A DNA stretch of 64,000 nucleotides. Source: Bacteroidales bacterium (GTDB lineage Bacteria > Bacteroidota > Bacteroidia > Bacteroidales > UBA12077). Below, in pieces: positions 47,431 through 57,829 of the stretch. The DNA is taken from the NCBI GenBank assembly GCA_016342685.1, contig JAEINU010000002.1:205085-269084 (forward strand), in the 5' to 3' direction. Each line of letters begins with the position of its first letter. The stretch's first letter is position 1. The notes beneath the pieces are model-generated. The model was not told the DNA's origin and did no database searches. It worked only from the letters and a program-made list of their open reading frames with translations. The position numbers and the translations under genes are program-made.

Positions 47431-50400
47431 ATGAATTTCATCATAAAACGAAAAGTACTTATTGCAATGCTCTTTACAGGGCTAACAATGCTTGGTTATA
47501 TTTCTTATAAACAGCTTCCTGTTGAGTTATATCCGAATGCCACCTACCCTATGCTTTTTGTGCAGGTTGGCACGTATATAGAAGTTGACCCAAAATACAT
47601 GGAGAATCAGGCGATTATTCCGCTAGAAGGTGCAATAGGAACATTGGAAGGAATTGAAAAAATTGAATCAACTGCAGGTCAACAATCTGGAAGTATTCAA
47701 ATATCCTTTCAAAAAGGGGTCGATCTTAAATTTGCTTATTTAAAACTGGTTGAAAAAATAGATGAGACCAAGAAATCTCTACCTAAAGAATTTCAGGTTC
47801 AGGCATTTAAGTTTGATTTGGAGCAACTGAATAATATTTTCATGACAATTCAGGTTCGTGGTAGCGGAGGTGTCGACCGTGTGCGACAAGTTACGAATCA
47901 GGAAATTATTAATGAAATAAAGAATATTGATGGAATTGCAAATGCCGAAGTTTTTGGAGGACGCGAAAAATCAATAGAAATTATTTTAAACGAGGATGTA
48001 TGCAACAGTTATGGAATTTCTCCTTCCGATGTTCGCTCTGCCCTCACCAGCAATAGCAAATCCAGAACATTTGCCGGAAAAGTTACAAACAACAATCAAC
48101 TGCATTTTGTAAATGTAATTTCTGAATTTGACAATATTCAGGATATCCATAATCTTATTGTAAAAGAGCAAGGAAAAATTAAACTTACCGATATCGCCAT
48201 CATAAATTATGGCGTAAAAGAACAAGAATCCTATAGTAGAATAAATGGCAAAGAAGCTGTTACAATAAGTCTCACAAAAGATTCGCAAGCAAACATCATT
48301 GCATTAGCAAATAGTGTTAAGGATCAAATTGAGATTTTAAACTCCGAACTTGCCGAAAAAGATATTGAATTGGTTGTGCAAAAAAACGATGCAGAAACCA
48401 TGGAGAAAAATATCGATTCAATTATTCAACTAGCATTAATTGGTGGAATTTTAGCCATTTTTATTTTATGGATTTTTCTTAGAAATATACGGCTTGTAAT
48501 TGCTATTGCTTTGGCGATTCCTATTTCGGTTTATACTGCATTTAATTTCTTTTATGCGTTTGGAATTACAATAAACAGTTTAACACTGCTTGGAATGGCT
48601 CTGGCTATAGGAATGCTATTGGATAATAGTGTCGTCGTACTGGAAAACATTTATCGGCTTGCATCTAAAAAGATGCATCCTGATCAGGCTGTAATTCAAG
48701 GAACAAAAGAAGTTTGGAAATCGATATTTGCTGCTACGCTTACAACAATTACGGTATTTCTTCCATTTGTATTTTCGACCGATTTCTTTATCGGATTAAT
48801 CGGCAAACATGTTGGTGTATCTATCATATCAACATTATTAGTTTCATTAGCTGTAGCCTTATTGCTTATTCCAATGATAACGCATGCTCTTTTAAAATTC
48901 AGGGTAAACGACAAACCAATTCAGTTCGAAAAAATATCCTATCACAATCGACTTATACAGATATACATGGTGTTATTAAAAACCTGTATGCGTAGTCCCG
49001 GAAAAACAATCTTAAGTGCAATAGGAATCTTTTTCATCACTCTTTTAATTAGTTTGGGAGTAAGTATTGTTAGCTCGCAAGAAGCAGAAATAAAGGATAT
49101 TTCACTTTATGTTACTTTGCCTAGCGGAACAACACTAGAAAACACAGATATTCTAATTGTAGAAGTCGAAAAAAACTTAGCAGATCTTGAGGAGATGAAA
49201 GATTTAGTGAGTCAGGTTTACGAAGAAGAATCTGTGTTAACCATATCCTTAAAAGATGATTATAAAGATCTTAGAAACTTTTCAATTCCTAAAATTAAAA
49301 ATGAGATTCTTGAGCGAGTATCAGAATTAAGCCCAGCCGAGTTTAGTTGGGATCCTCCGGCCGCGGGTCGTCGATTTGGTGGTAGCAATTACAACGACGA
49401 TGAATTTGGACAGTTTTTAGGTATCGGAACACAAAAAGAAAAGGTTCTGATTAAAGGTCAAGATTTCGATAAAATGTTAAATCAGGCAAACGATGTAGAA
49501 TACTATTTAACTCAGCTTACATCGGTTGAAAGAGTTGAGATCAGGGTTCCCAATAAACGTCCTGAGCTTATGCTAAATTTCGACAAACAGTTAATGGCTC
49601 TGTATGATATTCCTGTTACATCGGTGTTATCAGAATTAAATTCGTTTCAGCATGAATTTGCAAGCGGTGTAACTTTTAAACATGATAACGAAGAATACGA
49701 TATTCTAATTAAAACGATTGGGAACAAGGATAAAAAAGAGAAAGATGTAAAAGATCTTAAAAAATTAGAAGTTCGAGGTAGCAAAGGGAGCAAGTTTGAA
49801 TTGCAAGAAATAAGCAAATTCAATTTCACCGAAGGATTGTCTACCATTAAAAGAACAAATCAGGAAAAACAACTCGAATTAGTTTACGAATATATTGGAG
49901 AAGTAAAAGACGAGAAAGACTTACTCGAAGCAGCACGTGTTGAAATAGATGATTTAATTGCAGGAATGACATTGCCATCGGGCATTACTTTGGAGGTTGT
50001 TCATGATGAAAACGAACTGGGAGAATTTGCCTTTTTATTACTAATGGCATTTATACTGATTTACATGATTTTATCATCGGTATTTGAATCATTTACAGTG
50101 CCTATTGTAATGATGTTTTCGATTCCAATGGCTGCAATTGGTTCTATCATATTTTTAATACTAACCGGAACTTCTATTTTAAATCCATATGTTCTAACTG
50201 GATTTCTGATTCTTCTGGGAATTGTTGTAAACAACGGAATTATTTTAATCGATTACTCAAGAGTTTTACGTAAGCGAGGATACTCAGATTCAAGAGCCTT
50301 AATGATGGCTGGATTGGCGCGGGTGCGTCCAATATTAATTACTGCAATAACTACCATAATAGCTTTAATTCCTCTAGCATTAGGAAAAGCCGAATATGTG

Positions 50401-52143
50401 TCATTAATTGGAGTTCCTTTTGCTGTTACCATAATTGGCGGTTTATCGTTAAGCACCTTGTTAACTCTGGTATTTATTCCTACTCTAAACTCTGGATTGC
50501 AATCTTCTTTAAAATGGATGCGCGGACAGAATCCATATATCAAAATAATACAAATTACACTTTGGGTAATTGGAACCTATTTCATTTTTAAAGAGGTCGA
50601 TCGCAGAGTATGGCAAATAATCGACTTTATAGTTTTAATGCTTATTGTGCCAGCCAGCATCTATTTTATTCAAAATAGTTTACGAAAAGCAAACGAAAAA
50701 CTTATAGGTAATAACGATGCTCTGCATATTAGAGTTCGTAATCTTGTGAAAATTTACGATTGGGATAGCCGCTTTATGCGCGAATGGAAATCGGGAATAA
50801 ATATCCGAAAAAGACTTGGAATAGAACATGAGTTTAAATCGATAAAAGATTTTGACCAACTAATTTGGCAATTCCCATTAATCGGATTTATTGTCTATTT
50901 TATCTATTCCCATTTAGAAAGTGGATTTTGGTACTTCATATTACCTATTATACTATATATCTTAACAGTATATATTTTAAGTCCGCTTAAAAAGTATGCC
51001 AATAATCTAAAAATAGACAACAAAGGAATAATTCTGCGAAGAATACTTAAACTAACTTACGGGCTTTTCTTTTGGATTTTCCCAGCATTAGCAATGTTTC
51101 TCTTTTATTCGAAATATAAATTAATGGGCTTAGTAATTCCTATGGGATCAATCTGGTACTTACTAATCTTTATAAAAGTTACATCAGATAATTTATATCG
51201 AAAAAATGTAAATGTCAATCGAATAAAAGGCAGCTTTAAAGGCTTGCGAAAAGGGTTTTATCGATTTGTTTTAGTGATTCCGATAATTGGTAAAAAGAAA
51301 ACTCCATTTAAAGCTTTAAAAGGCGTTTCAATCGATATTGAAAACGGAATGTTTGGATTGCTTGGCCCTAATGGTGCAGGTAAATCAACTTTAATGCGTA
51401 TTATTTGCGGAATTTTAGAACAAAGTTATGGTCAAATAACAATTAATGGAATTGATGTTCGAGAAAAACGTGAAGAATTGCAGGGTTTAATTGGTTATTT
51501 GCCTCAGGAGTTTGGAATGTACGAGAACATGACTGCATGGGATTTCCTACATTATATGGGAATCTTAAAGAAACTATTTAACAAGGAAGAAAGAAGTAAA
51601 CGTGTTGAATATGTTTTGAAAGCTGTTCATATGTTCGACAATAAGGATGAAAAAATTGGTTCATTCTCTGGTGGTATGAAACAACGTATCGGAATTGCTC
51701 AGATTCTGTTGCACTTACCCAAAATATTAGTTGTTGATGAACCTACTGCCGGTCTTGATCCTAGAGAACGAATACGTTTCCGCAATTTATTGGTTGAGTT
51801 GAGTAAAAATAGAATTGTTATTTTCTCAACCCATATTATCGAAGATGTAGCAAGTTCATGTAATAAAGTTGCTGTAATGAAAAAAGGCGAAGTAAGATAC
51901 ATGGGGGCACCTATCGACATGGCTAAAATTGCTAAAGAAAAAGTGTGGATGATGAATATTCCTGCAGCGGAATTTGATACAGAAAAAGACAATTACACCA
52001 TTATTCACCACATGAAAGATGGAGATTATATACGTTGTCGTTGTTTATCTGATGGAGCTCCAACAGCCGATGCTAAACTTGCAAAAGCAAATCTTGAAGA
52101 TGCTTATTTGTATTTATTAAAGAATGATAACCCTGATATTTAA
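47431..52143 (+). CDS. RND efflux pump fused to an ABC ATPase, with membrane insert
   Basis: One uninterrupted frame of 1570 codons. Residues 1-1030 are a complete RND pump: start MNFIIKRKVLIAMLFTGLTM, TM4 Asp in GMLLDNSVVVLENIYR, and the second-half helices ending TLLTLVFIPTL. Two more TM helices follow (about 1037-1053, 1061-1080). Residues 1099-1110 (HIRVRNLVKIYD) look like the first strand of an ABC ATPase, but the next ATPase part (KALKGVSIDIENG) comes only at 1294. Between them are four TM helices (about 1145-1160, 1165-1184, 1208-1227, 1231-1249). The ATPase then continues with Walker A GPNGAGKST from 1312, signature FSGGMKQR at 1412, Walker B ILVVDEP with Asp1436-Glu1437, and His1468. 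All ATPase motifs are intact. The ABC-2 permease encoded 17 bases downstream is a likely partner. RND proteins are normally about 1000-1100 residues and gradient-driven. Confidence 0.9.
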   Translation: MNFIIKRKVLIAMLFTGLTMLGYISYKQLPVELYPNATYPMLFVQVGTYIEVDPKYMENQAIIPLEGAIGTLEGIEKIESTAGQQSGSIQISFQKGVDLKFAYLKLVEKIDETKKSLPKEFQVQAFKFDLEQLNNIFMTIQVRGSGGVDRVRQVTNQEIINEIKNIDGIANAEVFGGREKSIEIILNEDVCNSYGISPSDVRSALTSNSKSRTFAGKVTNNNQLHFVNVISEFDNIQDIHNLIVKEQGKIKLTDIAIINYGVKEQESYSRINGKEAVTISLTKDSQANIIALANSVKDQIEILNSELAEKDIELVVQKNDAETMEKNIDSIIQLALIGGILAIFILWIFLRNIRLVIAIALAIPISVYTAFNFFYAFGITINSLTLLGMALAIGMLLDNSVVVLENIYRLASKKMHPDQAVIQGTKEVWKSIFAATLTTITVFLPFVFSTDFFIGLIGKHVGVSIISTLLVSLAVALLLIPMITHALLKFRVNDKPIQFEKISYHNRLIQIYMVLLKTCMRSPGKTILSAIGIFFITLLISLGVSIVSSQEAEIKDISLYVTLPSGTTLENTDILIVEVEKNLADLEEMKDLVSQVYEEESVLTISLKDDYKDLRNFSIPKIKNEILERVSELSPAEFSWDPPAAGRRFGGSNYNDDEFGQFLGIGTQKEKVLIKGQDFDKMLNQANDVEYYLTQLTSVERVEIRVPNKRPELMLNFDKQLMALYDIPVTSVLSELNSFQHEFASGVTFKHDNEEYDILIKTIGNKDKKEKDVKDLKKLEVRGSKGSKFELQEISKFNFTEGLSTIKRTNQEKQLELVYEYIGEVKDEKDLLEAARVEIDDLIAGMTLPSGITLEVVHDENELGEFAFLLLMAFILIYMILSSVFESFTVPIVMMFSIPMAAIGSIIFLILTGTSILNPYVLTGFLILLGIVVNNGIILIDYSRVLRKRGYSDSRALMMAGLARVRPILITAITTIIALIPLALGKAEYVSLIGVPFAVTIIGGLSLSTLLTLVFIPTLNSGLQSSLKWMRGQNPYIKIIQITLWVIGTYFIFKEVDRRVWQIIDFIVLMLIVPASIYFIQNSLRKANEKLIGNNDALHIRVRNLVKIYDWDSRFMREWKSGINIRKRLGIEHEFKSIKDFDQLIWQFPLIGFIVYFIYSHLESGFWYFILPIILYILTVYILSPLKKYANNLKIDNKGIILRRILKLTYGLFFWIFPALAMFLFYSKYKLMGLVIPMGSIWYLLIFIKVTSDNLYRKNVNVNRIKGSFKGLRKGFYRFVLVIPIIGKKKTPFKALKGVSIDIENGMFGLLGPNGAGKSTLMRIICGILEQSYGQITINGIDVREKREELQGLIGYLPQEFGMYENMTAWDFLHYMGILKKLFNKEERSKRVEYVLKAVHMFDNKDEKIGSFSGGMKQRIGIAQILLHLPKILVVDEPTAGLDPRERIRFRNLLVELSKNRIVIFSTHIIEDVASSCNKVAVMKKGEVRYMGAPIDMAKIAKEKVWMMNIPAAEFDTEKDNYTIIHHMKDGDYIRCRCLSDGAPTADAKLAKANLEDAYLYLLKNDNPDI

Positions 52144-54146: not shown

Positions 54147-55127
54147 CTAAATACTTGCTTGTACCTGACTAATAGCACACTTACTAAGTAATAGCATTGC
54201 TAGTCGGGATTGACCTATTCCGCCGCCAATTGACAAAGGCAACTCACCATTTAAAAGCTTTTTATGAAATGACAACTCGATTCTATCTTCCGTTTTAGTA
54301 ATTTCAAGTTGCTTCAATAACGATTCTCTATCTACGCGAATTCCCATGGATGATAATTCAAAAGCATCTTTCAAAACAGGATTCCATACAATAATATCGC
54401 CATTCAGTCCACGATAACTCCCAATTGTTTCTGTCGACCAATCGTCATAATCCGGAGCGCGTAAATCGTGCGGAACTCCATCTTTTAACTCATAACCAAT
54501 TCCAATAATAAACACAGCTCCATAATCTTTTGCAATAACTTTCTCACGCTCTTTAGGAGTTAGTTTTGGATATCTGTATTGCAATTCTTCGGAATGAATA
54601 AATGTAATTTGTTCAGGCAAAAAAGACTTTAACTCTGGATAGATTCCAACAATAAATCTATCCGTTTCCTTAATTGTAGAATAAATTCTTTGTACTTCCT
54701 GTTTTAAATAATCCAAGCTCCTATCTTGCTCGGAGATTCTCTTCTCCCAATCCCATTGATCCACAAAGATAGAATGTATCGGACTAATTATTTCATCGGG
54801 GCGCAAAGCTTTCATATCTGTTATAATACCTTTTCCAGATTTCAAATCTAAATGCCCCAGAGTTAATCTTTTCCATTTTGCCAATGATTGCACAATTTCT
54901 AATTTTCTATCGGGATAAGATTTAGCTAAGAATCGAACAGGTTTTTCAATTCCATTCAAATCATCGTTAATTCCTGTGCCAGATGTAACAACCATTGGAG
55001 CCGAAACTTCCATTAAGTTTAGAGTTTCGGATAAACTCTTTTTAAAATAATCTTTTAACTCAAACAAAGCTTTCTGAGTAGTAACTCTGTCTAAAATTTC
55101 TTTTTGTTTTTTAATTGTTTTCAACAT
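54147..55127 (-). CDS. asnA: Aspartate-ammonia ligase (asparagine synthetase A)
   Basis: AsnA makes asparagine from aspartate, ammonia and ATP in the cytoplasm. The 326-residue product (E. coli AsnA has 330) shows the class II synthetase-like motifs: APMVVTSGTGINDDLNG, GKGIITDMKALRPDE, HSIFVDQWDWEK, DLRAPDYDDWS and the C-terminal GGGIGQSRLAMLLL with the ATP-binding Arg. The start at 55127 (MLKTIKKQKEI) fits the family; a longer frame from a GTG at 55181 would run through the leader terminator and is rejected. It is preceded by a 300-base leader with two asparagine-rich mini-ORFs and two terminators, so expression is probably set by the level of charged tRNA-Asn. Confidence 0.97.
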   Translation of the reverse strand: MLKTIKKQKEILDRVTTQKALFELKDYFKKSLSETLNLMEVSAPMVVTSGTGINDDLNGIEKPVRFLAKSYPDRKLEIVQSLAKWKRLTLGHLDLKSGKGIITDMKALRPDEIISPIHSIFVDQWDWEKRISEQDRSLDYLKQEVQRIYSTIKETDRFIVGIYPELKSFLPEQITFIHSEELQYRYPKLTPKEREKVIAKDYGAVFIIGIGYELKDGVPHDLRAPDYDDWSTETIGSYRGLNGDIIVWNPVLKDAFELSSMGIRVDRESLLKQLEITKTEDRIELSFHKKLLNGELPLSIGGGIGQSRLAMLLLSKCAISQVQASI

Positions 55128-55154
55128 TTTAAATTGATTTAAGGTTTTATATTT

Positions 55155-55194
55155 AATAAAAAACCCTTCATCTGAATTCACAGAGAAGGGTTTT
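55155..55194 (-). terminator. Leader terminator 2 (attenuator) of asnA
   Basis: AAAACCCTTC (55160-55169 as read on the plus strand) pairs with GAAGGGTTTT (55185-55194); the inner TCTG/CAGA pair extends the stem. On the minus strand it ends in TTTTTTATT. It lies 20 bases behind the stop of the second mini-ORF and 28 bases before the asnA start. The last codons of that mini-ORF (CGCAGGGAAGG on the minus strand) can pair with its 5' arm (CCTTCTCTGTG) over 11 positions including two G-U pairs, which would prevent termination. Confidence 0.85.
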
Positions 55195-55213
55195 AGTTAA
55201 TACAATACTATTA

Positions 55214-55276
55214 CTACCTTCCCTGCGGAGGAGGACGATTATTATTATTGTTATTATTTATCTTAATCAAAATCAT
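55214..55276 (-). CDS. Asn-rich leader peptide 2 of asnA
   Basis: A 20-codon frame: it starts MILIKI, has seven Asn codons in a row (codons 7-13), then RPPPQGR and TAG, followed directly by TAA. The ATG is seven bases after the T-run of terminator 1, so only RNA that escapes that terminator carries this peptide. Stalling on the Asn codons would leave the antiterminator sequence over the last codons free. The three Pro codons may add a pause of their own. Asparagine codons in front of an asparagine synthesis gene are the expected signal for ribosome-mediated attenuation. Confidence 0.75.
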   Translation of the reverse strand: MILIKINNNNNNNRPPPQGR

Positions 55277-55282
55277 TATATA

Positions 55283-55310
55283 CAAAAAAAGCCTTCCAAA
55301 TTGGAAGGCT
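55283..55310 (-). terminator. Leader terminator 1 (attenuator) of asnA
   Basis: AGCCTTCC (55290-55297) pairs with GGAAGGCT (55303-55310) over eight perfect bases, with seven T on the minus strand. It follows the first mini-ORF. On the minus strand the RNA also has GGAAGGCT earlier (55344-55351), over codons 20-22 of that mini-ORF; this copy can pair with the 5' arm and block the terminator. Confidence 0.85.
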
Positions 55311-55336
55311 CATAGGTTTTAAAATATCTTTTTTTA

Positions 55337-55408
55337 CTACAATAGCCTTCCAGTCTGTATATTATTTACAGAATTATTAGAAAGATTATTATTTGTAATT
55401 TGAATCAT
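55337..55408 (-). CDS. Asn-rich leader peptide 1 of asnA
   Basis: A 23-codon frame beginning MIQITNNN, with seven Asn codons (three, two and two, separated by one or two other codons), ending GRLL and TAG, directly followed by TAA as in the second leader. Its ATG is about 15 bases after the predicted transcription start. Codons 20-22 make up the antiterminator copy GGAAGGCT; a ribosome reaching the stop codon would cover it and let terminator 1 form, while a ribosome stalled at the Asn codons would leave it free. The design is that of the classical his or trp leaders. Confidence 0.75.
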   Translation of the reverse strand: MIQITNNNLSNNSVNNIQTGRLL

Positions 55409-55427
55409 TTTATTGCTTATTGGTTGA

Positions 55428-55459
55428 CAAATATAGATTTAAAAATCTCTAGATCAAAA
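55428..55459 (-). promoter_or_regulatory. Promoter of the asnA leader
   Basis: On the minus strand TTTTG (55459-55455) is followed after 19 bases by TATATTTG (55435-55428). This fits the Bacteroidota housekeeping promoter (TTTG, 19-21 bases, TAnnTTTG) in both boxes and spacing. RNA would start near 55421-55424. The promoter begins immediately after the stop codon of the upstream permease gene. Confidence 0.75.
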
Positions 55460-55462
55460 TAA

Positions 55463-57829
55463 CTACTCGTATCGTAAACTTTCAGCTGGATTTTTAGTCG
55501 CTGCTTTAAACGATTGATAGCTTATGGTTATCACAACAACAACAATTGATAAAACAGCTCCTATTGCGTACATCCACCAAGACAATTCGGTATGGTAGGC
55601 AAAGTTACCAAGCCATTTATTCATTATATAATAGGCAATTGGCCAAGCCAAAATATTACCTATAATAACAAGTTTCGTAAATTCTGCTGAAAACATTCGA
55701 ACTACTGTAGTAACCGATGCACCCATAACCTTTCTAATTCCAATTTCTTTTGTTTTCTGTTCGGCCATAAAAGAAGCTAAACCGAAAATTCCAAGACATG
55801 AAATAAAAATTGCAAAAATTGTGAAGTAATTAATTAGAGTGTTACTACGCTGTTCTGCACGATACAAACCCTCTAATCTTTCATCCAGGAACTGATAATT
55901 AAATTCATGATCAGGCTCAAAAGATTTCCATGTATCTTGGATATAATCCAGTGTTTTCTGAACATTATTTCCGCTTATACGAATAAAACAAATTCTTGAC
56001 TGATCTGGATCTATATAAAGCATTAATGGCGCAATTTTATTTCGGATATTATTAAAGTTAAAATCCCTCATCACACCAATAATATGAGCAGGTTCTTGCC
56101 CTTCTAAAGTTACGGTTTTGCCAATTGGATTTTCCAGCTTCATTTGCCGAACAGCCTCTTCGTTTAAAATATATGAATTTATAGTATCCGAAGATATATC
56201 TTTACTAAATGCTCGCCCTTCAGCCATGGATATTTCCATCGTTTCAAAAAAATCAAATCCGATAGGAAAAAAATGTAAAGTCAATGTGCGATCGTCGGTT
56301 TTGCCTTCCCACTGACTTAGCCCAAGTGAAGGACATGCATAAATTGGTAGTACCTGACTTGTTGAAACATTTTTGATATTGGGGTCTTGAAATAATTGTT
56401 GTTTTATTGTTTCATAATTCTGTCTAATATTAGTATTCATTCTTAAATAAACCAATTGGTGATTATTATAACCAAGGTCTTTATTTTTAATAAATCTTAT
56501 TTGTTCAGAAATTAATATTGTTGAAATTATTAATGCTACTGACAAGGTAAATTGCACTACTACCAATGATTTTCTTAATAAAGAACTTCTTGCACCACTT
56601 TTCAGCTTTCCTTTTAATACTCTAATAGGATTAAATGATGATAAATATAAGGCAGGATAACTCCCTGCAATTATTCCTGTAATTAAAGCAATGCCAATTA
56701 GCGTTGACAATATGAATGGATCAAATAATAAATCAACTAATAACTCTTTTCCAGCTAAATCATTAAATTTTGGTAACAAAAGAATAACTAAAATTAAGGC
56801 TATAACAAAAGAAAGCAAAGACATAAAAATAGATTCGCTAAAAAACTGCAATATCACATTTTCTCTTTTTGCACCTACCACTTTTCTTAATCCGATTTCT
56901 TTCGCTCTATTGCTTGAGCGAGCTGTAGTTAAGTTCATAAAATTAATGCATGCAATTAGCAATACTAGAAATGCGATTGCAGAAAAAGTTATAACACTAT
57001 TTAAATCTCCTCGCATTGTAAAATCATATGCAAAATCTGATCTTAAATAAATATCATTTAAAGATTGAGAAAATAATTGCGTTGTATTTTCTTCATCAAA
57101 CTTATCTAGGTAATTCTTTAGTTTATCGTTAACGGCAACTGATAAATTTTGATTTTTAAGCAAAAAGTATGTAGTAAAATTATATGCCCCTTGTCCCATT
57201 TCATCGATATTCTCTCCATCACCTTTCAAAATCTCAAAAGGAAATAAAAACTCAAAATCGAAATGAGAATGATCAATATTTGCTATTACACCAGTTACTT
57301 TAAAAGCACCTCTATCTTTAACCTCCAATAGTTGTCCAACTGGCTCATTGTTTCCAAAAATGCGCTCAGCCACTTCTTCGGTTAAAACTACACTATGAGG
57401 ATCAGACAAGGCTCCATTTGCAGTTCCTTTAATAAATTTAAAATCAAAAAGATCGAACGCAGTTGAATCTATTGCTGCACTTCCTGCCTCAATGTATTCT
57501 CCATCTTTGTATTTAAACAACCAAGAGCCCCAATTCTTAAATCGGCAAACACTTTCAATTTCCGGAAAATCCTTTTGCATATTAGGCCCCAGTGCAGCAG
57601 GAGTAACTGCTACATGATAAGGTTCTCCATCGTTCATTATACTTACCAAAACACGCTCAATACGATCTGCCTTTGAGTGCCATTTATCGAATTTTAATTC
57701 GTCTTGTACCCATAATAGAATTAATATACTACAAGCCATTCCAATTGCTAAACCTATAATATTTATTAAAGAATATGCAGTATGTTTTCTTAGATTACGA
57801 ACTGCCGTTAAAATGTAATTTTTAATCAT
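55463..57829 (-). CDS. FtsX/MacB-type ABC permease (orphan, fifth)
   Basis: The 788-residue permease starts at 57829 (MIKNYILTAVRNLRKHTAYS), matching the starts of the other four; a longer frame from 57868 adds 13 unrelated residues. It has the standard TM and periplasmic domain order, family loops SSNRAKEIGLRKVVGAKREN and QKTKEIGIRKVMGASVTTV, and the C-terminus NPAESLRYE. No ATPase, adaptor, TolC or regulator gene is adjacent, but a candidate sigma-54 promoter is at 57864-57880, so it may belong to the regulon of one of the NtrC-type proteins. No clear terminator follows it; the asnA promoter starts right behind it. Confidence 0.88.
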   Translation of the reverse strand: MIKNYILTAVRNLRKHTAYSLINIIGLAIGMACSILILLWVQDELKFDKWHSKADRIERVLVSIMNDGEPYHVAVTPAALGPNMQKDFPEIESVCRFKNWGSWLFKYKDGEYIEAGSAAIDSTAFDLFDFKFIKGTANGALSDPHSVVLTEEVAERIFGNNEPVGQLLEVKDRGAFKVTGVIANIDHSHFDFEFLFPFEILKGDGENIDEMGQGAYNFTTYFLLKNQNLSVAVNDKLKNYLDKFDEENTTQLFSQSLNDIYLRSDFAYDFTMRGDLNSVITFSAIAFLVLLIACINFMNLTTARSSNRAKEIGLRKVVGAKRENVILQFFSESIFMSLLSFVIALILVILLLPKFNDLAGKELLVDLLFDPFILSTLIGIALITGIIAGSYPALYLSSFNPIRVLKGKLKSGARSSLLRKSLVVVQFTLSVALIISTILISEQIRFIKNKDLGYNNHQLVYLRMNTNIRQNYETIKQQLFQDPNIKNVSTSQVLPIYACPSLGLSQWEGKTDDRTLTLHFFPIGFDFFETMEISMAEGRAFSKDISSDTINSYILNEEAVRQMKLENPIGKTVTLEGQEPAHIIGVMRDFNFNNIRNKIAPLMLYIDPDQSRICFIRISGNNVQKTLDYIQDTWKSFEPDHEFNYQFLDERLEGLYRAEQRSNTLINYFTIFAIFISCLGIFGLASFMAEQKTKEIGIRKVMGASVTTVVRMFSAEFTKLVIIGNILAWPIAYYIMNKWLGNFAYHTELSWWMYAIGAVLSIVVVVITISYQSFKAATKNPAESLRYE

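Follow-up and report, generated by a model that had tools for sequence, protein, structure and literature searches.

Two putative asparagine attenuators of different design in series upstream of asnA in a Bacteroidales bacterium

A Bacteroidales bacterium carries, upstream of its asnA gene, what are very probably two ribosome-mediated asparagine attenuators of different design, placed one after the other on a single transcript that starts at one promoter, and reading charged tRNA-Asn. By sequence tests the doubled attenuator is real and conserved, and its second gate departs from the classical design. The enteric his, trp and leu operons are governed by ribosome-mediated attenuators in which the leader holds codons for the product amino acid and a pairing of regions 2 and 3 competes with a terminator formed by regions 3 and 4. 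Both leaders described here resemble the his and trp type in that their open reading frames (ORFs) are rich in codons of the product (7 of 23 and 7 of 20 specify Asn), in the alternative 2:3 and 3:4 pairings, and in the intrinsic terminator that lies between each leader ORF and the next gene; the first leader also possesses a 1:2 element. They differ in their signal, asparagine, in their occurrence in Bacteroidota, in being two in series, and in the second leader, which lacks a significant 1:2 element and has a conserved Pro-Pro sequence instead. From the sequences we establish the anatomy of the leaders, their conservation, their locus-specific complementarity, their geometry and their link to asparagine synthesis genes.

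The stretch of DNA analysed, hereafter the window, comprises 64,000 nucleotides. On its minus strand, from 55459 to 55155, the elements follow in the order promoter, leader 1, terminator 1, leader 2, terminator 2 and asnA; a preliminary description had proposed a promoter, two Asn-rich mini-ORFs and two terminators ahead of asnA, and each was confirmed in the minus-strand sequence. The gene upstream of the leaders encodes a permease and ends at 55463. What we take to be the promoter, from the Bacteroidota consensus, lies at 55428-55459 (TTTTG at 55455-55459, a gap of 19 nt, and TATATTTG at 55428-55435). The regulated gene, encoding aspartate--ammonia ligase, occupies 54147-55127 on the minus strand, scores 407.3 bits against TIGR00669 (cut-off 292.8), and is the only match to that model in its genome.

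Leader 1 (55334-55408, minus strand) encodes MIQITNNNLSNNSVNNIQTGRLL followed by TAG TAA, and translation bears out the proposed mini-ORF of 23 codons, seven of them Asn; the ORF is conserved in relatives. Its region 1:2 structure (55346-55384) consists of an outer stem, 55378-55384 with 55346-55352, and an inner hairpin (55367-55372 against 55354-55359) that carries the last two Asn codons in its loop; the whole structure folds at -8.2 kcal/mol, with a z score of only -1.64 for this single sequence. Region 2, the antiterminator strand TGGAAGGCT at 55344-55352, pairs with the 5' arm of terminator 1 in a duplex of -16.6 kcal/mol, in agreement with the complementarity noted earlier. Terminator 1, comprising regions 3 and 4 and seven T residues, was placed at 55284-55311 from its fold and T run, and the fold of 55287-55313 (-15.0 kcal/mol, z -4.1) beats all 200 shuffles.

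Leader 2 (55211-55276, minus strand) encodes MILIKINNNNNNNRPPPQGR, likewise followed by TAG TAA, and is, as described, a 20-codon mini-ORF with seven consecutive Asn codons (55238-55258) on translation. A single Arg codon separates the Asn run from three Pro codons (55226-55234). The antiterminator strand of this leader, CGCAGGGAAGG at 55217-55227, makes the 11 pairs, G-U pairs included, that had been claimed for it with the 5' arm of terminator 2, at -17.6 kcal/mol. Terminator 2 with its six T residues spans 55158-55194 by fold and T run; its fold (55160-55194) reaches -17.5 kcal/mol, z -5.4, and again beats all 200 shuffles. In both leaders the antiterminator (2:3) and the terminator (3:4) are predicted to be mutually exclusive.

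Within the family of this bacterium asnA was found in 13 of 25 genomes, and both leaders precede it in all nine family loci with sufficient upstream sequence. Four further family loci are cut by contig ends (L003, L004, L008 and L010); L003 and L008 retain a complete leader of the second type, and the sequence of L004 begins within its Asn run. At L010 the second Asn run is intact and, by eye, has no in-frame start codon, which could reflect either a lost leader or an assembly error. Three near-complete congeners (G006, G007 and G013) have neither an asnA match nor the type-2 pattern. In a sample of the order, 113 of 295 genomes have asnA; upstream DNA of up to 700 nt was read for 109 of the 122 asnA rows besides that of the window (7 nt for L198 and 287 nt for L167), with thirteen order rows and the fragment L014 left out of the comparison. 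Outside the family, ten of these 109 loci carry a double leader (L032, L135, L154, L171, L172, L179, L183, L192, L194 and L200), five a type-1 leader alone (L139, L158, L187, L190 and L196) and one a type-2 leader alone (L153); the other 93 have no leader in the up to 700 nt read.

Among 80 named loci, 17 have a clear leader, and in 16 of the 17 it is of type 1 and single (12 Hymenobacter, one Flavobacterium, Myroides phaeus and two Bacteroidales MAGs), the sole double being that of Cesiribacter andamanensis. Across the phylum only 21 of 395 sampled genomes have asnA; of the 19 upstream stretches read, three repeat loci of the order sample. Two loci in this sample, L235 and L247, were flagged by our scan and judged real, and a third, L240, shows an Asn run and terminator by eye and went unflagged. 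At L247, from the same phylum and another class, the Asn-rich mini-ORF MNANLNSNLNLNANNNAMTAGG and a terminator lie at -251 to -119 from asnA. L064 (-153 to -48) and L242 (-156 to -51) share an identical 18-codon mini-ORF, MSNIYNSLLNYPCNLAGS, with only four Asn codons, and a terminator; their asnA genes, from Sphingobacteriaceae, fall on one tree tip with zero branch length, and the two are perhaps one species sampled twice, perhaps a strayed Asn leader. In the last 320 nt before asnA at L076 (Flavobacteriales), two near-identical terminators each follow an Asn-poor short ORF, which may be a double leader of a weaker kind.

A tree built from 82 AsnA proteins chosen among these loci (41 leaderless, 20 double, 16 type 1, one type 2 and four truncated) scatters the leader-bearing proteins over many branches. 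A single group, whose support of 81/86 is not strong, holds 27 of the 41 leaderless proteins, and the two genera of the window's family, both with double leaders, are placed apart. The double state requires eight changes on this tree, with the truncated loci either omitted or scored as double. The leader appears to travel with the asnA gene, and the doubles may be either old, with losses, or the product of multiple gains, since the tree fits either.

From these loci we curated 41 type-1 leaders, which either come first in a double or stand alone, and 23 type-2 leaders: the leader adjoining asnA in 20 doubles, those of the contig-end loci L003 and L008, and that of L153, which stands alone and was assigned by its form. 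L004 and L010 belong to neither set; the doubtful rows L064 with its twin L242, L178 with its repeat L244, and L076 were set aside (L076 entering as type 1 in the tree only), and L240, L235 and L247 served only for the tree. The motif TAnnTTTG occurs within 75 nt upstream of the ATG in 19 of 41 type-1 leaders and in one of the 22 type-2 leaders with sufficient upstream sequence, against a background of 129 in 1756 sequence windows (7.3%). In all 20 doubles the arm of terminator 1 and the second ATG are only 10-27 nt apart, leaving scant space for a second promoter. Given this short spacing and the rarity of the motif before type-2 leaders, transcription most likely arrives at leader 2 by reading through terminator 1; one promoter is visible, and the two leaders, each with its own attenuator, would lie on a single transcript.

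Conservation of the mini-ORFs and hairpins next to asnA in relatives had been named as a sequence-level test of the attenuation hypothesis, and the outcome did not refute it: both leaders, their terminators and their antiterminators are kept, with compensatory change. We measured region 2:3 pairing with partners swapped between loci, choosing the per-family sequences by hand. Type-1 leaders (n=41) pair at -15.3 kcal/mol with their own terminators and at -13.1 with those of other loci, and type-2 leaders (n=23) at -15.1 versus -10.3; none of 5000 permutations did as well in either set, nor any of 10,000 in subsets of 19 and 13 leaders holding at most three per family. With one sequence per family label the values are -13.8 versus -10.6 for type 1 (n=15) and -13.8 versus -8.3 for type 2 (n=10), again with 0 of 10,000 permutations each. 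In the 20 doubles, region 2 favours its own terminator in 18 first leaders and 17 second leaders; the second leader of L135 has no antiterminator (-4.4 kcal/mol).

The two leaders are built differently upstream of region 2. Type-1 leaders fold better than their shuffles up to region 2 (mean z -1.7, with 17 of 41 below -2). Their inner hairpin holds the last Asn codons in its loop immediately 5' of region 2, and its arms change together, from CTGTA..TACAG in the window to CTCGAAT..ATTCGAG in Hymenobacter. In 40 type-1 leaders, L085 being left out, the inner hairpin pairs at -7.7 kcal/mol within its own locus and at -3.6 across loci (0 of 5000 permutations); with one sequence per family (n=15) the values are -6.7 and -3.1 (0 of 10,000). 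It is weak in L183, L108 and L009, and the outer 1:2 pairing has a modest locus-specificity (25 of 5000 permutations). As judged from this covariation, leader 1 is a putative his/trp-like attenuator with a third element, the 1:2 pairing together with an inner hairpin around the last Asn codons.

Type-2 leaders have no fold up to region 2 that is better than shuffles on average (mean z +0.5, none of 23 below -1), and their 1:2 pairing has no locus-specificity (2658 of 5000 permutations), the last 8 nt before region 2 having been outside that search. What distinguishes them is Pro-Pro after the Asn run, present in 19 of 23 type-2 leaders and in none of 41 type-1 leaders (Fisher p ~1e-12, a value that ignores relatedness), or in 18 of 22 when L153 is removed; it is absent from L002, L003, L135 and L172. 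Over the first 30 residues of these leaders the Pro codons are CCT 18, CCG 17, CCC 14 and CCA 15 times, and this use of all four third bases points towards the peptide as the conserved feature. Eight type-2 ORFs extend into or up to the terminator, and all eight contain Pro-Pro. A ribosome placed with its A site one codon past Pro-Pro masks region 2 completely in 19 of 19 leaders. We considered the Pro-Pro codons as a strand of a 1:2 pairing and rejected this, as no type-2 leader falls below z -1 up to region 2. The C-rich Pro codons may nevertheless have a role in the RNA of L006 and L153, where region 2 is predicted to be closed without a ribosome; such closure is predicted in six of 23 type-2 leaders, besides L135 with its missing antiterminator.

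A polyproline stall ahead of an intrinsic terminator is reported to increase termination in E. coli without EF-P (PMC5021804). Pro-Pro would keep the ribosome of a well-fed cell over region 2. Tentatively, and with slightly more doubt than conviction, we propose that gate 2 is a leaner attenuator: a programmed pause at Pro-Pro, no more than a few codons past the Asn run, would substitute for the 1:2 hairpin and, in eight of 23 leaders, for the stop codon. Slow Pro-Pro bond formation would hold the ribosome over region 2, the switch would weigh the rate of decoding Asn against the rate of making Pro-Pro, and the serial gates would combine different failure modes.

From this architecture we infer the stalling, the order of folding, the read-through and the response in vivo. 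With ample asparagine, the ribosome would pass the Asn codons and come to sit over region 2, in leader 1 on reaching the stop codons and in leader 2 on reaching Pro-Pro-Pro or the stop; with region 2 masked, region 3 would pair with region 4, and RNA polymerase would terminate. With uncharged tRNA-Asn, the ribosome would stall on an Asn codon and leave region 2 free, so that 2:3 would form while region 3 emerges and polymerase would pass. Polymerase would have to pass two gates before asnA, the first having a third element like that of his and trp, and the second, with none that is significant, depending on the position of the ribosome. Two gates would be expected to give a steeper response and lower leakage.

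This scheme was modelled with a ribosome masking positions -18 to +12 relative to the A site, taking the probability of the antiterminator before region 4 has been made. When the stall is at the last free Asn codon, this probability averages 0.84 for type 1 and 0.93 for type 2; with the ribosome at the stop it is 0.30 and 0.00, and without a ribosome 0.70 and 0.71. In the window a ribosome at the stop gives 0.00 in both leaders. The antiterminator is at or below 0.5 with the ribosome at the stop in 29 of 41 type-1 leaders and in all 15 type-2 leaders having a stop before the terminator; in 12 of 41 type-1 leaders, eight of them from Hymenobacter, the stop lies past region 2, and a ribosome there would leave region 2 unmasked. 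In 30 of 41 type-1 leaders, that of the window included, regions 2 and 3 are predicted to pair when no ribosome is present, and 1:2 therefore looks like a weak brake. For the full transcript at equilibrium, terminator 1 of the window has a probability of 0.73 with the ribosome at Asn and at the stop alike, so that gate 1 must act kinetically; for terminator 2 the probability rises from 0.32 when the ribosome sits at Asn to 0.79 when it sits at the stop. On these values the switch must be largely co-transcriptional.

Leaders before a different asparagine synthesis gene bear on the identity of the signal. AsnA and AsnB are non-homologous enzymes with a common product, asparagine. A pattern of four Asn codons, one codon of any kind and Pro-Pro, sought in 291 genomes of the order, returned 38 rows in 34 genomes, and in the window's own genome leader 2 only. 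Ten rows lie upstream of asnA, those of G169 and G263 being placed by coordinates only; among 26 further rows examined, one, L279, is an ORF followed by a terminator. The leader of L279 is doubled in full, as MRKNSLNNNSSNNALNNNYS and MKDNSLLNNNLNNNNNNNLPP with a terminator behind each, and precedes a gene for asparagine synthase B (NF006949, 700 bits, cut-off 499); regions 2 and 3 pair at -13.7 kcal/mol in the first and -11.8 kcal/mol in the second, and its genome (G301, 92% complete) gave no asnA match in the order search. A single leader with a duplex of -10.8 kcal/mol precedes asnB at L326, found among 49 asnB upstream sequences of 54 rows. Within the genus, the asnB-family genes have no Asn leader in the 30 loci scanned besides a match at L210 that was judged spurious. 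A leader before asnB, seen at two asnB loci only, is the strongest sequence evidence that asparagine is the signal. The reading of the locus as ribosome-mediated Asn attenuation, put forward earlier by analogy, is supported by the conserved leaders, by compensatory change and by the doubled asnB leader of L279, whose genome gave no asnA match. The earlier account of the leaders stands for the ORFs, terminators and antiterminators; it had missed the third element of leader 1, the Pro-Pro of leader 2 and the existence of single leaders.

Other explanations of the arrangement were weighed. Gate 2 might sense proline or the state of EF-P besides asparagine, Pro-Pro being regulatory as in Salmonella mgtP, so that the signals of the two gates would partly differ. 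The conservation of Pro-Pro and the use of all Pro third bases speak for this, as do the tandem attenuators of mgtCBR, which carry different signals (PMC3641672). However, Asn codons outnumber Pro codons in these leaders, and a stall at Pro-Pro masks region 2 fully (19 of 19), favouring termination; a shortage of proline would therefore reduce asnA expression, for which no physiological sense is evident, and we regard this explanation as unlikely. Somewhat less likely again is that one leader alone is a working Asn gate and the other a decaying duplicate or a plain terminator. Single leaders do exist, of type 1 (5 of 109 in the order, 16 of 17 clear named loci) and of type 2 (L153), the second leader of L135 lacks an antiterminator, and the second Asn run of L010 lacks an in-frame start. 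Against this, both antiterminators of the 20 doubles are strong on average and best with their own terminators (18 and 17 of 20), and there is a systematic contrast between the two kinds of leader, both in structure (mean z -1.7 versus +0.5) and in Pro-Pro (0 of 41 versus 19 of 23), such that neither looks like a fresh copy.

It is exceedingly improbable that the terminators belong to the upstream gene or to an unrelated small RNA and that the Asn-rich frames are a coincidence of A/T-rich sequence. The region is AT-rich, AAT runs arise easily, and the permease gene ends close by at 55463. We scanned for mini-ORFs that start with ATG, contain many Asn codons and precede a G+C-rich hairpin with a T run; on both strands of the window the only matches are the two leader sites. 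In 80 other asnA loci there are 20 matches in 19 loci (two of which, L064 and L076, are doubtful), all on the sense strand and less than 400 nt upstream of asnA, and none in 992,644 nt, both strands, beside the 700-nt upstream stretches of these loci. Thirty asnB-family loci of the genus gave one weak match, L210, with four Asn in 18 codons. The Asn spans of type-2 leaders contain 107 AAT, 30 AAC, 15 other codons and no AAA or AAG, although these counts are partly selected, the leaders having been found by Asn content, and at L012 the sequence before the leader differs and carries, by eye, its own hairpin with a T run. Chance Asn runs are ruled out by the control scan, and coincidence is largely excluded by comparison of relatives. 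T-box control of asparagine genes is known in Gram-positive bacteria, and a T-box or riboswitch at asnA is just as remote a prospect, as no Rfam family reaches its gathering score in the window and a permissive scan of 55100-55480 gave only weak sub-gathering matches, T-box not among them.

The preferred reading, two Asn attenuators in series, has partial precedents. Salmonella mgtCBR has two leader ORFs on one mRNA before the gene, and its tandem attenuators, called a singular example, respond to different signals, ATP and proline, whereas the asnA leaders have Asn codons in both; the mgtCBR stem-loops are said to be unlike intrinsic terminators, which both leaders here possess (PMC3641672). 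The tandem riboswitches of B. clausii metE share with this locus two serial terminators on one leader and differ in that the RNA senses two different signals directly, with no leader peptide (as described in PMC3641672). Our searches of the open literature yielded neither a ribosome-stalling Asn attenuator nor two serial leader-peptide attenuators reading the same amino acid; Bacteroidota asn leaders may figure in a survey of bacterial attenuation (Lopatovskaya et al. 2010, Mol Biol 44:128). Leader-peptide attenuation has been hinted at in the phylum (PMC9723704; PMC7366714), in the first of these studies upstream of amino-acid operons in Flavobacterium psychrophilum, with neither asnA nor asparagine in its main text. 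Bacteroid-trp RNA, RF01692, tabulated in PMC2864571, is a candidate cis-regulatory leader in Bacteroidota. This RNA had no match in the window's own genome. Its role is in attenuation by Trp, another amino acid than Asn.

Other features of this genome may be recorded. No clear amino-acid leader lies upstream of its ilvB match, which is below cut-off, or of two aspartate kinases. The genome (G000), rated 100% complete, has no hisG match and no ilvB match above cut-off, and the cell may accordingly need histidine and branched-chain amino acids from outside. On the plus strand of the window, an ORF of 1570 aa at 47431-52143 fuses an AcrB-type RND transporter (ACR_tran, residues 2-1019) with an ABC ATPase domain (1296-1440), a fusion that, judged from the window, seems unusual.

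If the serial attenuators operate as proposed, Bacteroidota would control asparagine synthesis at the RNA level, before both asnA and the unrelated asnB. A polyproline pause may then be a working part of a switch. The locus would offer a natural case for asking why a cell reads one signal twice, and, since single and double versions exist in nature, the value of the second gate could be tested directly.
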